Of a stretch of DNA of 64,000 nt, positions 20,014 to 28,701 are shown piece after piece. The stretch spans positions 1 to 64,000 of the forward strand of contig JAGFIT010000050.1 in the NCBI GenBank assembly GCA_024103385.1, read 5' to 3'. Both the position numbers and the translations under genes were made by a program. The notes beneath the pieces were generated by a model. It saw only the letters and a program-made list of their open reading frames with translations, made no database searches and was not told the DNA's origin. Position 1 is the stretch's first letter; every line of letters starts with the position of its first letter. The DNA is from Vicingus serpentipes (lineage in GTDB: Bacteria > Bacteroidota > Bacteroidia > Flavobacteriales_E > Vicingaceae).

Positions 20014-22815
20014 ATGGTTCTATTTAGATATTTTTCAACATTTGTGTTAACAATTTTTTTTACTGGTTTTGTTTTTTCTCAAGAAAAACTATCTGCTAAA
20101 GATGAAAAACAAATGCTTGAAAAAGCTGAATTTTATTATGAGGACGAAAGTAGTAGAAATATCCTTAAAGCATTAAAATTATTTGAAAAACTGTCTGAAA
20201 ATAATCCTGATGATCCTTATTATAAATTAATGATAGGGATTTGCGATACTTATTTTCAAAATAAAAAAAACGAGGCCATAAATAAGCTCTTGGATGTAAA
20301 AGAATCTAACCCAGACTTTAATGAAGTTAATTTTTATTTAGGACGAGCATATGCTGTAAATCATCAATTTGATGAGGGGATTGAATATTATCAGGAATAT
20401 TTATCGGAAGAAGGGTTAACAGATGAACAAAAATCAATTACCCGTCAAAATATTATTTACTGTCAAAATGCCAAGCAATACATAAAAGATAGTTTGGCTG
20501 TTAATATTAGAAATATAGGGACGCCTATCAATACGGAGTATTCAGAGTATGTGCCTGTAATTACTCCAGATGAATCTATGTTGATATACACGTATAGAGG
20601 AAAAAGGAGTAAAGGTGGATTGTTAGATGCTGCGGGGAAACCCGATTCTGATGGACACTATTATGAGGATATTATGATTTCTTACAAGTTGGGTGATGAT
20701 TGGTTAGAACCAGAAAGTATAGATGATAATATTAATACCGTGGGGCATGATGCGAGTATAGCTTTATCAGTTGATGGGCAACAGTTGTTTATTTATAAGC
20801 AGGATAAAAAAAATAATGGAGACATCTATATAAGTAATTTAAATGGTGAAAATTGGACTAAGCCAGAGCCATTGCAGGGTGGTGTAAATACCGAAGCGTG
20901 GGAAGGAAGTGCTTCACTTTCAAGTAATGGAGAAACGTTGTATTTTGCTAGTGATAGGGCAGGAGGTTTTGGGGGGAGAGATTTGTATTCAGCAATTTTA
21001 CAACCAGATAACTCTTGGGGTGATATAAAAAACCTGGGACCAACTATCAACACTAAATTTGATGATGATGCTCCATTTATTCATCCCGATAGAAAAACGA
21101 TGTACTTTAGTTCTAAGGGACACAATAGTATGGGTGGATATGATATCTTTTATACTTATTTAAGTGATGAAGGTTGGGATGAGCCTAAGAATATCGGTTA
21201 CCCTATTAATACTATTGATGATGACCGATACTATGTATTATCAGCAGATGCTAAAACGGGTTATTATTCTTCTGCAGGAAGAAGTGAAAAAGGGACTCAT
21301 GATATTTATATGGTTGGTCCAGGGCATTTTGGAAAAAGACCTGTATTAGCTTTAGTAATAGGTGTTGTAAAGGCAGATGATAAACCATTAGATGCTGATA
21401 TTACGGTTACCAATAATGAAACAGGAGAGGTTGAGGGAAAATTTAAATCCAATTCTACATCGGGTAAATACATGTTGGCATTAACGCCTGGAAATAAGTA
21501 TAAAATTGCAATTGAAGTGGAAGGTTATCAAACAAGGATAGACTATTTAGATGTAGAATCTTTAGAGAGTTATGTTCAAGTAGAACATGACTTTAATTTA
21601 CACTCAAAAGAAAATATTGTAGGAGAAGAACCGCTTGGGGAAATAGATCCTTTACAAGGAAAAATTGATAAGCAAATAGAACAATATCGTTATGAGAATA
21701 CTAAAAAAGGTTATGAGGAAAAGGTTTATAATGAAATATTGAAAGAAGAAGGAGGCAAAGAAGAGGAAGCTATAGGTTATTTTGTGGAATTAAATACAGA
21801 AAATGTTAAAGAAATAGATATAACAGATCAACCTCATCAAACAAGAACTTACCCTGATGGCACAAAGAAAGAAGTTTTAGGTCCTTTTAAAACATTATTA
21901 GCTGCTGAGGTTGCTAGACAACAAATAATTAAAAAAGATCCAGCATTAGCTGCTTCTGAGGTGAAAGTAGATAATAAAGGAAAGGAAGAGACAATTAAGG
22001 AATACTACGCAGAGCGTTATACTAAAAAAGATTTTGATGGTGATACTGATATACACGAGCATTTAACGAAAGATAAATCCAAAGAAGAAAGCTTAAAGAC
22101 AAAATTAATCGATGAATCAGGTGACGATGCTTTGACAGACGCAAAAGATAAATTAATAACAGGACTAAAATTTAAAGTAGAAATAGGTGCTGTTGAAGAA
22201 GGAGAAGAATTTAAATTAGGTTACCTAGAAAAATACGGTAAGATAACAGCTAAAACTTATCCTGACGGAAAAACACGATATACTTTTGGGCCATTTGAAA
22301 CTCTGGTAGAAGCAGAAAATTTCAGAAAAAATCTCTTGGAAAAAGAAAAAGCAAGTGAAGATGCTTTTGTAACAGTATTTGTATTTGGACAAAGAAAAAC
22401 AATAACTGAATACGAGAAAGGACCGTGTGAGAATGATGGATTTGTTGATTTTTCTTGGTTTATAGGTAAAGATTTGAATGATAAAAAAGTCTACAACCAA
22501 TTAATTAAGATAGGAGGAAATTCTTGTGCTGAAGGCTTGGAGTTTAAAGTGCAAATTGCAGCATATCGTCATCCAGAAAATTATGTTTGGAACCACCTAA
22601 AAGAATATGGAGAGCCTTTAGTATTAAATTATCCTGATGAAATAACAAGATTTACGCAAGGATCTTATCATACATTGGCTGAGGCAGAAGTCTTAAGGCA
22701 GAAAATAATTAAGTCAGGACAGAAAGATGCTTGGATAACTCCTTTTTATAAAGGCAAAAGGATGTTGTTAGAGGATTTGTTTAAGGTTAATTTCTACGGA
22801 AAAAGCATCAATTAA
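20014..22815 (+). CDS. TPR / PD40 propeller / SPOR-like repeat envelope protein
   Basis: The 933-residue protein has a signal peptide (residues 1-23), a TPR-like helical region (~30-150), a PD40 beta-propeller (~180-440; LYFASDRAGGFGGRDLYSA, MYFSSKGHNSMGGYDIFY), a carboxypeptidase-regulatory-like domain (~455-530), and three C-terminal SPOR-like repeats (about 590-680, 715-790, 840-915). The repeats share YPDG-TR-T-GPF-TL-EAE-RQ-I. It resembles T9SS- and gliding-associated OmpA/PorE-type proteins but lacks the OmpA domain. The SPOR-like repeats could take over peptidoglycan binding (inference). The next gene starts 109 bases later with its own promoter. Confidence 0.8.
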   Translation: MVLFRYFSTFVLTIFFTGFVFSQEKLSAKDEKQMLEKAEFYYEDESSRNILKALKLFEKLSENNPDDPYYKLMIGICDTYFQNKKNEAINKLLDVKESNPDFNEVNFYLGRAYAVNHQFDEGIEYYQEYLSEEGLTDEQKSITRQNIIYCQNAKQYIKDSLAVNIRNIGTPINTEYSEYVPVITPDESMLIYTYRGKRSKGGLLDAAGKPDSDGHYYEDIMISYKLGDDWLEPESIDDNINTVGHDASIALSVDGQQLFIYKQDKKNNGDIYISNLNGENWTKPEPLQGGVNTEAWEGSASLSSNGETLYFASDRAGGFGGRDLYSAILQPDNSWGDIKNLGPTINTKFDDDAPFIHPDRKTMYFSSKGHNSMGGYDIFYTYLSDEGWDEPKNIGYPINTIDDDRYYVLSADAKTGYYSSAGRSEKGTHDIYMVGPGHFGKRPVLALVIGVVKADDKPLDADITVTNNETGEVEGKFKSNSTSGKYMLALTPGNKYKIAIEVEGYQTRIDYLDVESLESYVQVEHDFNLHSKENIVGEEPLGEIDPLQGKIDKQIEQYRYENTKKGYEEKVYNEILKEEGGKEEEAIGYFVELNTENVKEIDITDQPHQTRTYPDGTKKEVLGPFKTLLAAEVARQQIIKKDPALAASEVKVDNKGKEETIKEYYAERYTKKDFDGDTDIHEHLTKDKSKEESLKTKLIDESGDDALTDAKDKLITGLKFKVEIGAVEEGEEFKLGYLEKYGKITAKTYPDGKTRYTFGPFETLVEAENFRKNLLEKEKASEDAFVTVFVFGQRKTITEYEKGPCENDGFVDFSWFIGKDLNDKKVYNQLIKIGGNSCAEGLEFKVQIAAYRHPENYVWNHLKEYGEPLVLNYPDEITRFTQGSYHTLAEAEVLRQKIIKSGQKDAWITPFYKGKRMLLEDLFKVNFYGKSIN

Positions 22816-22924: not shown

Positions 22925-24163
22925 ATGATGAAAAAAGCATTACTAATCACTTCTATAGCGTTGTTATCGTTTGCGGGGTATACCCAAGATAACTTAGTAC
23001 CTAATCATGATTTTCAAATTATAGAAAAAAAAGTAAAAGACAAAGGGGCAATTGAGTCCGCTTTGCCTTGGACTTCACCTACACTTGCAAAAGCAGATTT
23101 ATATATTGAAAAAACAAAAAATTATTCAATATCTGTTCCTGAAAATGCGTACGGTGAGGAAAAACCAATGGAAGGAGATAATTATGCTGGAATTATAGCA
23201 TATAGCTACAAAGGAAAAGTTCCGAGAAGTTATTTGCAAGTTAAACTGACAGAAAAATTAAAAGCAGGACAAGAATATTGTGTTACAATGAATGTAAGTT
23301 TAGCAGATTTATCAAAATACGCATGTAATTATATCGGGGTGGCAGTTTCTGATAAAGAAATTACAGCTAACAATAGTGAGGTGCTTCAGTTTGATGCTCA
23401 GATTTTAAGTCGAAAATTAGTGGTGTATGAACAACAATATTATTGGACGCCTATTTGTGGGGTATATAAAGCAAAAGGAGGAGAAGAATTTATTACTATA
23501 GGAAACTTTACGCCAGATGATAAACTTACCACTAAAAAAGTAAAGAGACCAACAGGTTTTAATAAGCCTCAATTGAATGATGCATATTATTTTATTGATA
23601 ATATCTCAGTTGTTCTAAAAGATGAAGACCTTAAGTGCAATTGTGATGCTATAGAAGGTATGGAGAATGCGGAAACGGTTAACCGAAATTTTAGTAGTGA
23701 TAAAACTGCTAAGCAAAAAGAGATTAAAATAATTAATTCCGATGGATCAGTTGGCCCAGGAAATGAAAATACATCTGGTGTCGCTGCTCAGGGATCGACT
23801 GGAGGTAGTATTGATGGAATGGTAATTAGTTTTAAGCCTAAAGCCAATTCTATAGTAGGAAATTCAACTGCAATAATGGATAAGATTGTGGCTTATATGA
23901 AAGCCAATCCAAACGATAAAATAATGATTTCTGGCTATATTGATGAGTCTGAGAAAGATGTAGATAAGTTGGACGGAAAAAGAGTTGGTACAGTATATAA
24001 ATATTTGCTTTCTAAAGGAATATCTAAAGATCGTATAGAAAGAGAAGTAGGTGGAGCTGATGCTCCTGTTGATGAAAGTAATGCGGTAAAAAATATGAGA
24101 GTAGAAATTGCATTAATTCAAGAACAGGAGGGAGAAGATGAAGAAGGAAATGAAGAAGAGTAA
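22925..24163 (+). CDS. Envelope protein with N-terminal jelly-roll-like domain and degenerate OmpA domain
   Basis: The 412-residue protein has a signal peptide (MMKKALLITSIALLSFAGYTQ). An N-terminal domain (NLVPNHDFQII, then DNYAGIIAYSYKGKVPRSYLQVKL, then YYFIDNISVVL) resembles the jelly-roll module seen in front of OmpA domains in Bacteroidota. Residues ~300-400 resemble an OmpA-like peptidoglycan-binding domain (MISGYIDESEKD, GKRVGTVYKYLLSKGISKDRIE, MRVEIAL). The usual NRRVEI is NMRVEI here and the HTD-type peptide-binding motif reads GYIDE, so peptidoglycan binding is uncertain. The tail is very acidic (EDEEGNEEE). No terminator other than the hairpin at 24278 follows. Confidence 0.72.
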   Translation: MMKKALLITSIALLSFAGYTQDNLVPNHDFQIIEKKVKDKGAIESALPWTSPTLAKADLYIEKTKNYSISVPENAYGEEKPMEGDNYAGIIAYSYKGKVPRSYLQVKLTEKLKAGQEYCVTMNVSLADLSKYACNYIGVAVSDKEITANNSEVLQFDAQILSRKLVVYEQQYYWTPICGVYKAKGGEEFITIGNFTPDDKLTTKKVKRPTGFNKPQLNDAYYFIDNISVVLKDEDLKCNCDAIEGMENAETVNRNFSSDKTAKQKEIKIINSDGSVGPGNENTSGVAAQGSTGGSIDGMVISFKPKANSIVGNSTAIMDKIVAYMKANPNDKIMISGYIDESEKDVDKLDGKRVGTVYKYLLSKGISKDRIEREVGGADAPVDESNAVKNMRVEIALIQEQEGEDEEGNEEE

Positions 24164-24277
24164 TATTTTTTAATTAAAAAAAACTAAAAAGTATGTAAAA
24201 TAGTTATACAGGCTTTTTTTATGTTAAAAAATCTATAAAATCGAATATTAATATAATATAAATTAATTTAGGGGGGG

Positions 24278-24337
24278 TAAAAAAAGGGGGTGTTAATAAA
24301 AATAGTTATGTATTTTTATTATTTACCCCTTTTTTTA
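24278..24337 (+). other. Large hairpin directly upstream of the glnN promoter
   Basis: Two nested perfect inverted repeats form one interrupted stem: TAAAAAAAGGGG (24278-24289) pairs with CCCCTTTTTTTA (24326-24337), and AATAAAAATA (24295-24304) pairs with TATTTTTATT (24311-24320) around a 6-base loop. A run of seven G precedes the left arm. The 3' arm ends in seven T, so it may terminate transcription of the upstream OmpA-like gene. It also occupies the place of the glnN -33 element, so a control role is possible. Confidence 0.7.
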
Positions 24338-24340
24338 GAA

Positions 24341-24348
24341 TACCTTTG
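24341..24348 (+). promoter_or_regulatory. -7 element of glnN
   Basis: TACCTTTG matches TAnnTTTG and lies 38 bases before the glnN start codon. The expected -33 TTTG is absent; the right arm of a hairpin lies there instead, which hints at activator dependence. Confidence 0.5.
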
Positions 24349-24386
24349 TTTTCGAAATTATTTTTTAATCCTTAAAATTATTAAAA

Positions 24387-26576
24387 ATGCCATTATTTAG
24401 ATTTAAAGCACTTGAAGACGTGTTGGCTAGAGAGCCTAAAGAGGTTAAGTTTCCATCAGATAAAGTTTCTGATTATTATGCAACTAATGTGTTTACGCAA
24501 GAAACAATGAGAGCTTTTCTTCCTGATGAAGCTTATAAAAGTGTTATTTCTTCTATCAATAAAGGAACTCGTTTAGAAAGAAGTATGGCTAGTCAGGTAG
24601 CATCTTCTATGAAGGATTGGGCATTAACAAAGGGAGCAACACATTATACGCATTGGTTTCAGCCTTTGACAGGATCTACTGCAGAAAAACACGATTCTTT
24701 TTTCACTCCAATTAGCGGAGGAAGAGCTATAGAAAAATTTGATGGAGAGAATTTAGTTCAGCAAGAACCAGATGCGTCAAGTTTTCCAAATGGAGGGATT
24801 AGAAACACTTTTGAAGCAAGAGGCTATACCGCTTGGGATCCGACTTCTCCTGCTTTTGTTATTGGAAAAACATTGTGTATTCCTACTGTTTTTATTGCAT
24901 ATACAGGCGAATCATTAGATTATAAAATGCCCTTGTTAAAAGCTTTACACGCAATAGATAAGGCGGCAACTGAAGTTTGTCAATATTTTGATAAGGATAT
25001 TACAAAAGTAAACGCAAGTTTGGGTTGGGAGCAAGAATATTTTTTAATTGATAAAGCATTGTATAATGCACGTCCAGATATTATGATGACGGGAAGAGCG
25101 TTGGTTGGGCATAATCCTGCTAAAGGGCAACAATTGGATGATCACTATTTTGGTTCTATACCAGAAAGAGTAGTTTCTTTTATGAAAGAATATGAAATTG
25201 AGGCACTTAAATTAGGAATACCTGTAACTACTAGACATAATGAGGTAGCACCAAATCAATTTGAATGTGCGCCAATGTTTGAAGAAACGAACTTGGCTAA
25301 TGACCATAACTTGTTGCTAATGGACGTGATGGAAAAAGTAGCTAGGAAACATGACTTTAGAATCCTTTTTCATGAGAAACCATATGGAGGATTAAATGGT
25401 TCAGGGAAACACAATAACTGGTCGTTAGGTACAAATACAGGAGTTAATTTGTTGGCTCCTGGGAAAAACCCAAAAACCAATTTATGTTTTTTGACTTTCT
25501 TTATAAATACAATCAAAGCTATCTATGATAACGCAGATATTTTAAGAGCAAGTATTGCGTCAGCTAGTAATGATCATAGATTAGGTGCTAATGAAGCTCC
25601 TCCAGCTATCATATCCGTATTTATTGGCTCTCAATTAACTCAAATGTTGGATAATATTGAGGATAATGTGAAGGCAGGAAAAATGACACCAGAAAATAAA
25701 ACAGAGTTAAAGTTGAGTATTGGTAAAATCCCTCAGATATTATTAGATAATACGGATAGAAATAGGACATCTCCATTCGCATTTACAGGCAATAAATTTG
25801 AATTTAGAGCTGTTGGTTCGGCCGCAAACTGTGCTAATTCTATGATTGCGTTAAATGTAATGGTAGCTGATCAATTGAACAAATTCAAAAAGGATGTGGA
25901 TGCTAGAATTGCTAAAGGGGTTAAAAAAGATGAGGCTTTATTACAAGAACTTCAAAAATTAATAAAAGAATCGAAAGCAATTCGTTTTGAGGGAAATGGT
26001 TATGGAGAAGAATGGGCGAAGGAAGCAAAAAAAAGAGGGCTTTCTAACCTTAAAGATACCCCTCGAGCATTAGAAGTAATGATTAAAAAAGAAACTAAGG
26101 AATTGTTTGGAAGATTAAATGTTCTTTCGGAAATAGAATTAGAAGCGAGATATGAAATAGAGTTAGAAAATTATATTATGAAGTTGCAAATTGAATCTCG
26201 AAGTTTAGGGGATTTGGTTCAAAACCATATTATTCCAACAGCGATTAAATATCAAAACACGTTAATAGAAAATGTTAGAGGAATGAATTCTATTTTCAGT
26301 AAAAAGGAAGCGAACGATTTGTCTTTAACTCAGACCCAGTTGTTAAAAGAAATTTCAACACACATCCATGAGATTAAAGTTAAGTCAGGTCAAATGTTAG
26401 ATGAGCGAAAAAAAGCAAATAAAATTGATGAGACAAAGAAAAAAGCATTGGCTTATTGTGATAACGTTAAACCTTATTTTGATCAGATTAAGTACCATTC
26501 GGATAAATTAGAATTATTAATAGATGATGAAATATGGCCTCTACCAAAATTGAGAGAGTTATTGTTTACTCGTTAA
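24387..26576 (+). CDS. glnN: Type III glutamine synthetase
   Basis: The 729-residue protein has the length typical of GSIII and much more than GSI. Visible marks are the GSIII N-terminal region (ALTKGATHYTHWFQPLTGSTAEKHDSF is typical in content), LGWEQEYFLID near 212-222 (metal-binding Glu), VTTRHNEVAPNQFE near 283-296, and GLNGSGKHNNWS near 338-349. It makes glutamine from glutamate and ammonia in the cytoplasm using ATP. It stands as a single gene with its own -7 element and a large upstream hairpin, which fits separate nitrogen control. Confidence 0.96.
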   Translation: MPLFRFKALEDVLAREPKEVKFPSDKVSDYYATNVFTQETMRAFLPDEAYKSVISSINKGTRLERSMASQVASSMKDWALTKGATHYTHWFQPLTGSTAEKHDSFFTPISGGRAIEKFDGENLVQQEPDASSFPNGGIRNTFEARGYTAWDPTSPAFVIGKTLCIPTVFIAYTGESLDYKMPLLKALHAIDKAATEVCQYFDKDITKVNASLGWEQEYFLIDKALYNARPDIMMTGRALVGHNPAKGQQLDDHYFGSIPERVVSFMKEYEIEALKLGIPVTTRHNEVAPNQFECAPMFEETNLANDHNLLLMDVMEKVARKHDFRILFHEKPYGGLNGSGKHNNWSLGTNTGVNLLAPGKNPKTNLCFLTFFINTIKAIYDNADILRASIASASNDHRLGANEAPPAIISVFIGSQLTQMLDNIEDNVKAGKMTPENKTELKLSIGKIPQILLDNTDRNRTSPFAFTGNKFEFRAVGSAANCANSMIALNVMVADQLNKFKKDVDARIAKGVKKDEALLQELQKLIKESKAIRFEGNGYGEEWAKEAKKRGLSNLKDTPRALEVMIKKETKELFGRLNVLSEIELEARYEIELENYIMKLQIESRSLGDLVQNHIIPTAIKYQNTLIENVRGMNSIFSKKEANDLSLTQTQLLKEISTHIHEIKVKSGQMLDERKKANKIDETKKKALAYCDNVKPYFDQIKYHSDKLELLIDDEIWPLPKLRELLFTR

Positions 26577-26697: not shown

Positions 26698-28701
26698 ATG
26701 GAAAAAAATAAAATTTTTGGAGCCCTAGTTCTCTTTATGGCAATGACTTTGACAGTTAATGCTCAGAAGAATTTTAAGCAAGAAGCTGATGTTGCTTTTG
26801 AAGGGTATAAATACTATCAAGCGATAGATATGTATAAGAAAGCATATACAAAAGAATCTAAGTCAGATGTAAAAGCAGAAATTTTGTTTAAGATAGCAGA
26901 ATGTTATCGTTTAAAAGAAGATGGAAAGCAAGCAGCTGTATGGTACGATAAGGCAATAAAAGCAAAATATGATGACCCTATAGCAATACTACATATTGCT
27001 AATATATATAAAACTCAAGGGAATTATGAAGAGGCTATTGTCCACTACAACAAGTACAAGGCAGCTAATCCAGGAGATAAAAGAGTGGATAGAGGAATAA
27101 AATCTTCTGAGTTAGCTAAAGAATGGAAAGATAACCCTACAAGAATAATAGTTAACCCTATGCCATTGCTAAATTCTGAGGCATATGATTTTTCGCCTGT
27201 TTTTGCAGATAAGAAAAATGATGAATTATATTTTACTTCAACTAGACAAGGTTCTGCAGGAACTGAAGTTTCAGATGTTACAGGAATGAATTTTTCTGAT
27301 GTTTATCAGACTAAAAGAGATAAGAAAGGAAAATGGAGTGAACCTGCTGTTTTAAATGAAACAATCAACTCTCCAGCAAGTGAAGGAGCTGCTTGTTTGA
27401 ACGAAAAGAGAAGTATTATGTATTTCACGAGATGTGGAGTTGAGAAGAAAGGGGTTATGGGATGTAGTATTTTTTGGGCAAAAAGATCAGGACAAAAATG
27501 GGGAGAACCAGAATTAATTGCTGTAGCTGCTGATACATTTACTGTTGGTCACCCTGCTATTTCTGCTGATGATAACACATTAGTTTTTTCTTCGAATATG
27601 CCTGGAGGTAAAGGAGGAAAAGATTTATGGTACATTACTTACGATTCAAAAGCAAAGACTTGGTCAGAACCAACAAACTTAGGTTCAGAAATAAACACTG
27701 CTGAAGATGAAATGTTTCCTTACATTAGAGAAAATGGAGAATTGTATTTTTCTTCTAATGGTCATGACGGCATGGGAGGGTTAGATTTATTTAAAGCTGC
27801 TAGCACTGGAGTGAATCAGTGGAGTGGAGTCGAGAACTTGCAATATCCTATGAATTCAGAAGCCAATGATTTTGGAATTGTTTTTGAAGGAATGAAAGAT
27901 AGAGGATATTTTACAACAAGTAGAGAAGGAGGAAAAGGTGGTGATGATATTTGGGAGTTTTATTTACCCCCAATGTTATTTTCTTTAGAAGGTACAGTTA
28001 AAGATATTGAAACAAAAGAATTGTTGGCTAATGCAAAAGTGAAAATAATAGGTACTGATGGATCTTCTGCTGAGGTGACAACAGATGATAAAGGGTATTT
28101 TTCTTTCATTGAAAATGGAGCGGATAGGTACATTAATCCAGAAACTTCATACTCTTTGGTGGTAGAGAAAGAAAAATATTTAGCTGCAAAAGGAAAAGAG
28201 ACAACGGTTGGATTGAATACATCTAAAAAGTTTGTTCATGAGTATGAGTTGCAGCCGTTTAAAGACGCAGTTATTAAATTACCTTTAATTGAATACGAAT
28301 ATAATAAAGCTGATTTAAGAGCGAACTCTAAAGATTCTTTAAATTTTCTTTATAATACTATGATTGATAATCCAACTATTGTAATTCAATTGCGTTCTCA
28401 TACGGATTTTAGGGGTTCTGCTAGATATAATCAGAGTTTATCTCAAAGAAGAGCCCAGTCTTGTGTAGATTACTTAGTTAAAGAAAAAGGAATTGATCCT
28501 GAAAGAATTGTTGCTAAAGGGATGGGAGAAAATGAACCTATTAAAATGGCTGATGGTACATTGTTAGATGAGAAATACATTAATACTTTAAAATCAGAAG
28601 AAGAAAAAGAAGCTGCACATCAACGAAACAGACGTACAGATTTTAAAGTACTTAGAGATGACTACGTACCTAAAACTGCTTCTTCTACAGAAGAAAAGTA
28701 G
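26698..28701 (+). CDS. TPR / PD40 / CRD / OmpA envelope protein (PorE-like architecture)
   Basis: The 667-residue protein has a signal peptide (ends near VNAQ), TPR-like helices (~25-135), a PD40 propeller (~150-420; ELYFTSTRQGSAG, LVFSSNMPGGKGGKDLWY, LYFSSNGHDGMGGLDLF, GYFTTSREGGKGGDDIW), a carboxypeptidase-regulatory-like domain (~430-515) and a full C-terminal OmpA domain (IQLRSHTDFRGSARYN ... SLSQRRAQSCVDYLV ... QRNRRTDF). The order is the same as in PorE-type T9SS proteins that link the machinery to peptidoglycan. Many paralogues share it, and there is no lipobox here, so a T9SS role is only suggested. A strong terminator follows. Confidence 0.82.
   Translation: MEKNKIFGALVLFMAMTLTVNAQKNFKQEADVAFEGYKYYQAIDMYKKAYTKESKSDVKAEILFKIAECYRLKEDGKQAAVWYDKAIKAKYDDPIAILHIANIYKTQGNYEEAIVHYNKYKAANPGDKRVDRGIKSSELAKEWKDNPTRIIVNPMPLLNSEAYDFSPVFADKKNDELYFTSTRQGSAGTEVSDVTGMNFSDVYQTKRDKKGKWSEPAVLNETINSPASEGAACLNEKRSIMYFTRCGVEKKGVMGCSIFWAKRSGQKWGEPELIAVAADTFTVGHPAISADDNTLVFSSNMPGGKGGKDLWYITYDSKAKTWSEPTNLGSEINTAEDEMFPYIRENGELYFSSNGHDGMGGLDLFKAASTGVNQWSGVENLQYPMNSEANDFGIVFEGMKDRGYFTTSREGGKGGDDIWEFYLPPMLFSLEGTVKDIETKELLANAKVKIIGTDGSSAEVTTDDKGYFSFIENGADRYINPETSYSLVVEKEKYLAAKGKETTVGLNTSKKFVHEYELQPFKDAVIKLPLIEYEYNKADLRANSKDSLNFLYNTMIDNPTIVIQLRSHTDFRGSARYNQSLSQRRAQSCVDYLVKEKGIDPERIVAKGMGENEPIKMADGTLLDEKYINTLKSEEEKEAAHQRNRRTDFKVLRDDYVPKTASSTEEK

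Follow-up and report, generated by a model that had tools for sequence, protein, structure and literature searches.

The glnN locus and its promoter

The window, by which we mean the whole stretch of 64,000 nucleotides analysed, carries on its plus strand an open reading frame for a 729-residue protein (24387..26576), which we take, following the preliminary description and general knowledge of the family, to be glnN, the gene for type III glutamine synthetase (GSIII). The product is matched in 58 of 60 relatives and in 113 of 119 genomes of the class, and its NCBIfam matches are partial and under cut-off. Upstream on the same strand lies a gene for an OmpA-domain protein (22925..24163, an open reading frame with OmpA-type NCBIfam matches under cut-off), whose transcript would head toward the inverted repeat described below; judged by eye, a comparable protein end precedes glnN in the correctly oriented loci of the same genus. 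An OmpA/PD40 gene also occurs downstream of glnN in L127, L139 and L190, and the segments flanking glnN in the window (20014-22815 and 26698-28701) encode proteins that resemble CHU_0125 and PorE-type outer-membrane or type IX secretion proteins, again by matches under cut-off.

The promoter is marked by a -7 element for the primary sigma factor, TACCTTTG (24341..24348, plus strand), assigned from its sequence and from the consensus and position given in the excerpted text of PMC9723704. There, the Flavobacterium psychrophilum sigma-A box TANNTTTG occupies -12 to -5, so the glnN transcription start is predicted near 24353 (24353..24353, plus strand), which would place the inverted repeat upstream of the glnN transcript. 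In the window, TTTG is lacking at the customary -33 distance.

An inverted repeat between the two genes

The space ahead of the -7 element is filled by an inverted repeat, or double-stem hairpin (24278..24337, without strand), which we read as two inverted operator half-sites with flanking A/T tracts. Its arms (24278-24304 and 24311-24337) are 27 nt each and 85% complementary, separated by a loop of 6 nt. Read directly, the outer stem has 12 bp (24278-24289 with 24326-24337) and the inner stem 10-11 bp (24294/24295-24304 with 24311-24320/24321), with 4-5 mostly mismatched positions between the two. This agrees with the preliminary description, which gave nested repeats of 12 and 10 bp with 5-base mismatched bulges and placed the stem end three bases ahead of the -7 element at 24341-24348. 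The repeat folds at -29.9 kcal/mol, whereas shuffled versions average -17.3 (z = -4.35) and 0 of 200 fold as well (all shuffles in this work are first-order Markov resamplings), and the hairpin ends 3' in T7. Its operator-segment fold is the strongest among the 17 sequences folded. A run of seven G ahead of the left arm, also pointed out earlier, is present in the window (24271..24277, plus strand) but absent from all eight aligned same-genus relatives. An Rfam search of 23900-24700 returned seven matches up to E = 10, all far under the gathering scores, and assigned no family.

A conserved motif upstream of glnN

The glnN upstream regions of relatives share the motif AGGGGGTGTTRATAAAA, which falls within the left arm of the window hairpin; the local version is AGGGGGTGTTAATAAAA (24285..24301, plus strand), a candidate left operator half-site at predicted positions -68 to -52. 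Among the 45 sites that score at least 12 of 17, G3, T8 and A14 of the motif are constant in 98-100%, and the distance from the motif to the -7 element (TANNTTTG) is 54-56 in 36 of the 45, the search having permitted 52-58. Relative to the predicted start, the centre of the left half-site falls near -60 and that of its right counterpart, described below, near -28. Across nine aligned same-genus sequences the left arm is close to letter-perfect, with TGTT and ATAAAAA invariant and the G-run almost so.

The same signal emerges from a word count over 54 upstream regions of 35 genera, which was run after the consensus had been derived and made no use of it. GGGGGTGT occurs in 15 genera where 0.28 are expected, the top 8-letter word with at least three letter types in 100 shuffles reaching 11; for GGGGGTGTT the count is 12 genera against 0.08 expected and a shuffle maximum of 7. 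The -7 words TACTTTTG and TACATTTG are likewise among the top words of these regions.

Scored together with the -7 constraint at p <= 0.01, the motif is found in 29 of 35 regions from the window's own family (window included) and in 7 of 19 from other families, figures obtained by scoring the consensus on the very regions, the first set, from which it had been derived. With the consensus fixed beforehand, 11 of 38 later genomes reach p <= 0.01, six of them from families that had not been sampled; these 11 score 11-15 of 17 and none is perfect. The remaining 27 later genomes (p > 0.01) and 12 of the 19 other-family genomes have no recognisable motif. Left out before counting were L028 and L015, which have no usable upstream sequence, start-less glnN fragments, and L054, the second, divergent glnN of G011, which was scored and lacks the motif; L005, which has the full motif followed by TACATTTA in place of TANNTTTG, was counted as a miss. 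On these counts the motif is common across the class Bacteroidia, though far from universal.

Bases upstream of glnN are thus conserved in relatives, and their spacing to the -7 element is nearly constant, which supports the operator that the preliminary description had offered as one possible role. The DNA pattern is observed directly; we infer from it that a protein binds here, and the inverted repeat is very probably the local version of a conserved double-stranded DNA operator in the glnN promoter.

Five glnN promoters (L027, L031, L040, L043 and L037) carry a second G-run half-site or a full palindrome about 51-53 bases further upstream, a distance of about five helical turns.

The hairpin as a possible terminator

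The preliminary description had also suggested that the hairpin may be a terminator for the upstream gene. On this reading it would be an RNA stem, possibly bidirectional, closing the OmpA-type transcript. The window by itself invites this, given the very good fold, the T7 end and an ordinary terminator-like hairpin of the upstream gene (24186..24220, plus strand, a stem followed by T7) that is unusually weak at -5.5 kcal/mol, relatives being stronger there. Comparison with relatives makes it highly improbable. The operator-segment fold, -23.4 kcal/mol in the window, spans -7.9 to -21.8 kcal/mol in eleven same-genus relatives and drops to -3.0 kcal/mol, the weakest value, among the family's other genera; L002 gives -14.7. 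In each of the 16 relatives examined, a different hairpin followed by a T-run lies 36-81 bases upstream of the motif (-11.5 to -21.6 kcal/mol for the best segment, values that carry no shuffled control), and the motif stays with glnN where the upstream neighbours change between lineages.

Nor do the pairs covary clearly. In an alignment of nine same-genus sequences, a subset of those existing, stem pairing is 65.0%; shuffles give 62.9%, and 67 of 500 are equally high. Shifting the 3' side by one column again gives 65.0%, and a shift of two columns lowers the pairing to 62.9% but raises the covariation score. Pair counts in the aligned glnN upstream regions are therefore not clearly above controls, and the alignment for covariation that the preliminary description proposed gave no clear signal. 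With variable fold strength, no clear covariation and other terminator-like hairpins in relatives, we rejected a conserved intrinsic terminator. The strong hairpin might have a secondary terminator role in the window genome only, conceivable because its own upstream terminator is weak; help with termination in one genome would leave the conservation elsewhere unexplained. The inverted repeat is real, yet what is conserved is the DNA motif, not the hairpin.

The right half-site and the choice between activation and repression

The right half-site is a weaker inverted copy (24322..24329, minus strand, reading TTTACCCC on the plus strand) at predicted positions -31 to -24, within the -33/-7 spacer. 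Within the 18 bases that lie 22 to 5 positions ahead of the first T of the -7 element, CCCC occurs in 22 of the 45 sites where 1.2 are expected from other places in the same regions, and CCC in 29 where 4.1 are expected. ACCCCCT is found in 10 genera (1.0 expected), short of 16, the shuffle maximum for any 7-letter word. The inverted symmetry of the half-sites holds in about half of the 45 sites, not all; L229 and L328 come close to a perfect palindrome across the two halves, and in the nine same-genus sequences little of the right arm is kept besides the C-run. Several lineages (for example, L013, L014, L032 and L039) have the distal half-site without the proximal one, and four (L019, L022, L023 and L024) retain mainly the proximal C-run. 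In L011, L012 and L247-L249 a direct GGGGTGT/GGGGTCT-like copy seems, by eye, to replace the inverted right half.

The position of this right half-site gives weight to a repressor, in which a regulator would block the promoter when nitrogen is plentiful and the right half-site would be the blocking contact. It overlaps the core promoter spacer, its CCCC is far in excess of expectation, and the four lineages that retain mainly the right half fit the scheme. The -33 element bears on the same question: the usual TTTG, reported missing in the preliminary description, is indeed absent from 35 of the 45 sites, the window among them, but TTTG is present in the other 10, against 2.1 expected. TTTG above chance in these promoters raises the repression reading and lowers that of activation, and the lineages with mainly a proximal C-run speak against the distal half-site always being essential. 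However, the left half-site, near -60, could hardly block RNA polymerase alone and is the better conserved of the two; it occurs without the right half in several lineages; and with -33 TTTG absent from 35 of 45 sites most of the bare promoters should be weak. We therefore regard repression as rather unlikely.

A strong distal site that is retained without its proximal half, together with a -33 element that is mostly missing, favours activation over plain occlusion. An activator mechanism at the glnN operator is, by our estimate, somewhat better than an even prospect, and an activator is more likely than a repressor; promoters that have a -33 TTTG may need no activator.

Specificity for glnN

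Searching 60 genomes for the motif with an in-register -7 element gave 23 matches in 21 of them, the window's own included, against one for the reversed-pattern control. By coordinates 20 of the matches are at glnN and two are elsewhere, and one further match, at a contig end (G013:C194), is probably at glnN. The exact 16-mer GGGGGTGTTRATAAAA is present in 22 of 395 genomes of the class, one copy in each (control, 1), and stands at glnN in 20 of these 22: directly upstream in 19, and in L229 as the palindrome's right arm before a divergently oriented glnN recognised from its first residues. A scan of named genomes yielded at least 118 stretches, and among the 80 listed are 26 glnN loci, counting L148, whose stored sequence stops soon after the glnN start; a Chitinophaga MAG, a Chryseobacterium MAG, Crocinitomicaceae and Salibacter halophilus are represented among these listed glnN matches. 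The 54 other loci of the 80 are mixed, and several have a different word, GTTGATAAC.

Within the window's own genome, the motif with up to two mismatches shows no excess (39 matches against 40 in the reversed control). The pattern GGGTGTTNATAA gives three matches there, as does its control; one of the three lies inside an open reading frame, and glnN alone has TANNTTTG in register, so that the exact pattern with an in-register promoter is found at glnN only. At 13 amtB and three gltB loci the top motif score is 13 of 17 and none resembles the glnN motifs, the gltB loci having been located via the central domain, so that the true gltB promoter may fall outside the flank.

The two halves combined as GGGGTGTT-N24-34-ACCCC return 42 rows from 23 of the 60 genomes (control, 7). 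Ten of the rows are at glnN by coordinates and one more probably is; at least 9 come from one repeat array in G037. One Prevotellaceae locus (L185) carries the motif with an in-register -7 element before a CoA-transferase-like gene, named by eye, rather than glnN.

Possible nitrogen control and the candidate regulator

The target being glutamine synthetase, a nitrogen regulator is plausible as the operator's partner. We infer nitrogen as the signal from the target gene and from the reported induction of glnN in Prevotella ruminicola under ammonium limitation: excerpts of PMC5552732 give a 35-fold increase for the GSIII-2 gene, and elsewhere the same source words the correlation between ammonium and glnN the opposite way.

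Among the 25 families listed of 106 (77 of 99 glnN-neighbour proteins) there is no transcription factor, nor is there one among the 25 families listed of the 36 that 24 smaller neighbour proteins match. PII (PF00543) has no match in the window's own genome, which is 97% complete, and was detected in 13 of 14 control genomes; it is likely absent. Neither AmtB nor the GOGAT central domain was found in that 97% complete genome, and of 60 relatives 11 have AmtB and three have the GOGAT central domain. With PII, AmtB and the GOGAT central domain not found, the usual PII-based nitrogen control is unlikely here, and the organism seems to assimilate ammonium via glutamine synthetase without the classical Ntr components. 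In two loci, G011:C108 (L280) and G049:C149 (L281), amtB directly follows glnN on the same strand; in G011 the amtB-linked copy is the divergent second glnN, which lacks the motif.

Three loci (L328, L329 and L313) have arms that are altered yet symmetrical, as seen by eye (GTTCACAAATA/TATTTGTGAAT; TGTGAATA/TATTCACA). The two halves appear to have changed in concert, which would be expected of a co-evolving regulator, and the altered arms suggest a regulator of changed specificity.

A model for the probable glnN operator

In our preferred reading, the putative regulator, probably dimeric or tetrameric, would recognise AGGGGGTGTTRATAAAA as its left half-site (about -68 to -52); in many lineages it would also contact the weaker inverted C-run copy in the -33/-7 spacer. 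Because a good -7 element is present and a -33 element mostly absent, the putative activator would hold RNA polymerase at the promoter when nitrogen is short, as happens at sites centred near -61. A broader proposal, which we put forward tentatively and hold to be somewhat short of an even chance, is that a dedicated single-target regulator of glnN, encoded at an unlinked position and independent of PII, controls ammonium assimilation in a good part of the Bacteroidia by reading an unusual composite operator whose two G-run half-sites, at -60 and in the -33/-7 spacer, are separated by about 33-34 bp.

The preliminary description recognised no described regulator site, and our searches agree with it among the matches listed. 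The literature on nitrogen regulation in Bacteroidetes, Bacteroides and flavobacteria, mostly non-subscription and judged from abstracts, contains among the matches listed no described operator or regulator for a Bacteroidota glutamine synthetase, though older work on the Bacteroides glnA promoter may mention one. Papers holding the motif letters include, by title and among the matches listed, none on glutamine synthetase of Bacteroidota, and the excerpts of PMC5552732, PMC9723704, PMC7366714 and PMC12316311 do not describe the element. As far as we have found, this would be an undescribed glnN-linked operator common to many Bacteroidia. The exact operator, present once per genome that has it, can serve directly as bait in isolating the regulator and can mark the lineages that share this control of glnN.

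Comparison with known systems

In Firmicutes, glnRA is controlled through operators of the MerR-family regulators GlnR and TnrA, with the consensus TGTNAN7TNACA. These likewise control glutamine synthetase, and the left half-site includes TGTTA or TGTTG; the half-site of L003 by itself reads TGTTA-N7-TAACA. The glnN motif differs in that TNACA is rare, standing at the required offset in two of the 45 sites and one base further in two of the 45, and in an extra conserved G-run that lies outside the consensus. A GlnR/TnrA-type operator is accordingly very unlikely, and with TNACA in two of 45 sites we rejected it.

The DnaA box is TTATNCACA, and TGTTRATAA resembles its reverse, which could make the motif a DnaA-box-like site tying glnN to replication. 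Words similar to the motif, running on as GATAAC, do precede zapA-like, dnaB-like and parA-like genes, named by eye, in other Bacteroidota. A DnaA box would nevertheless leave the conserved G-run and A-tract, the near-fixed -7 distance and the link to glnN unexplained, and the tolerance of A, G or T at motif position 10 is unlike the box; we hold this reading to be extremely improbable. In six loci (L112, L114, L130, L111, L131 and L147), GGGTGTTGATAAC words lie at a similar distance from TANNTTTG ahead of such zapA-like, dnaB-like or parA-like genes, named by eye from their first residues, and they are perhaps a DnaA-box-like cell-cycle motif.

The NtcA box of cyanobacteria is GTA-N8-TAC. Cyanobacterial glnN, which encodes the same type of enzyme, is under NtcA nitrogen control according to the abstracts of PMC4923085 and PMC6316151. 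The motif described here is not an NtcA box, and a search of the window's own genome did not find PII. The glnN promoter of the window carries TANNTTTG, the flavobacterial sigma-A -7 box in the excerpted text of PMC9723704. This sets it apart from NtrC/sigma-54 control of glnA, which is also control of a glutamine synthetase promoter.

Class I and class II activator sites, as at CRP-type promoters, are centred near -61.5 or -41.5. The glnN half-site is unrelated to CRP sites in sequence and has an inverted partner about 33-34 bp away in the core spacer. The arrangement is otherwise alike, with a left half-site at about -60 from the predicted start, mostly no -33 element and narrow spacing to the core promoter.
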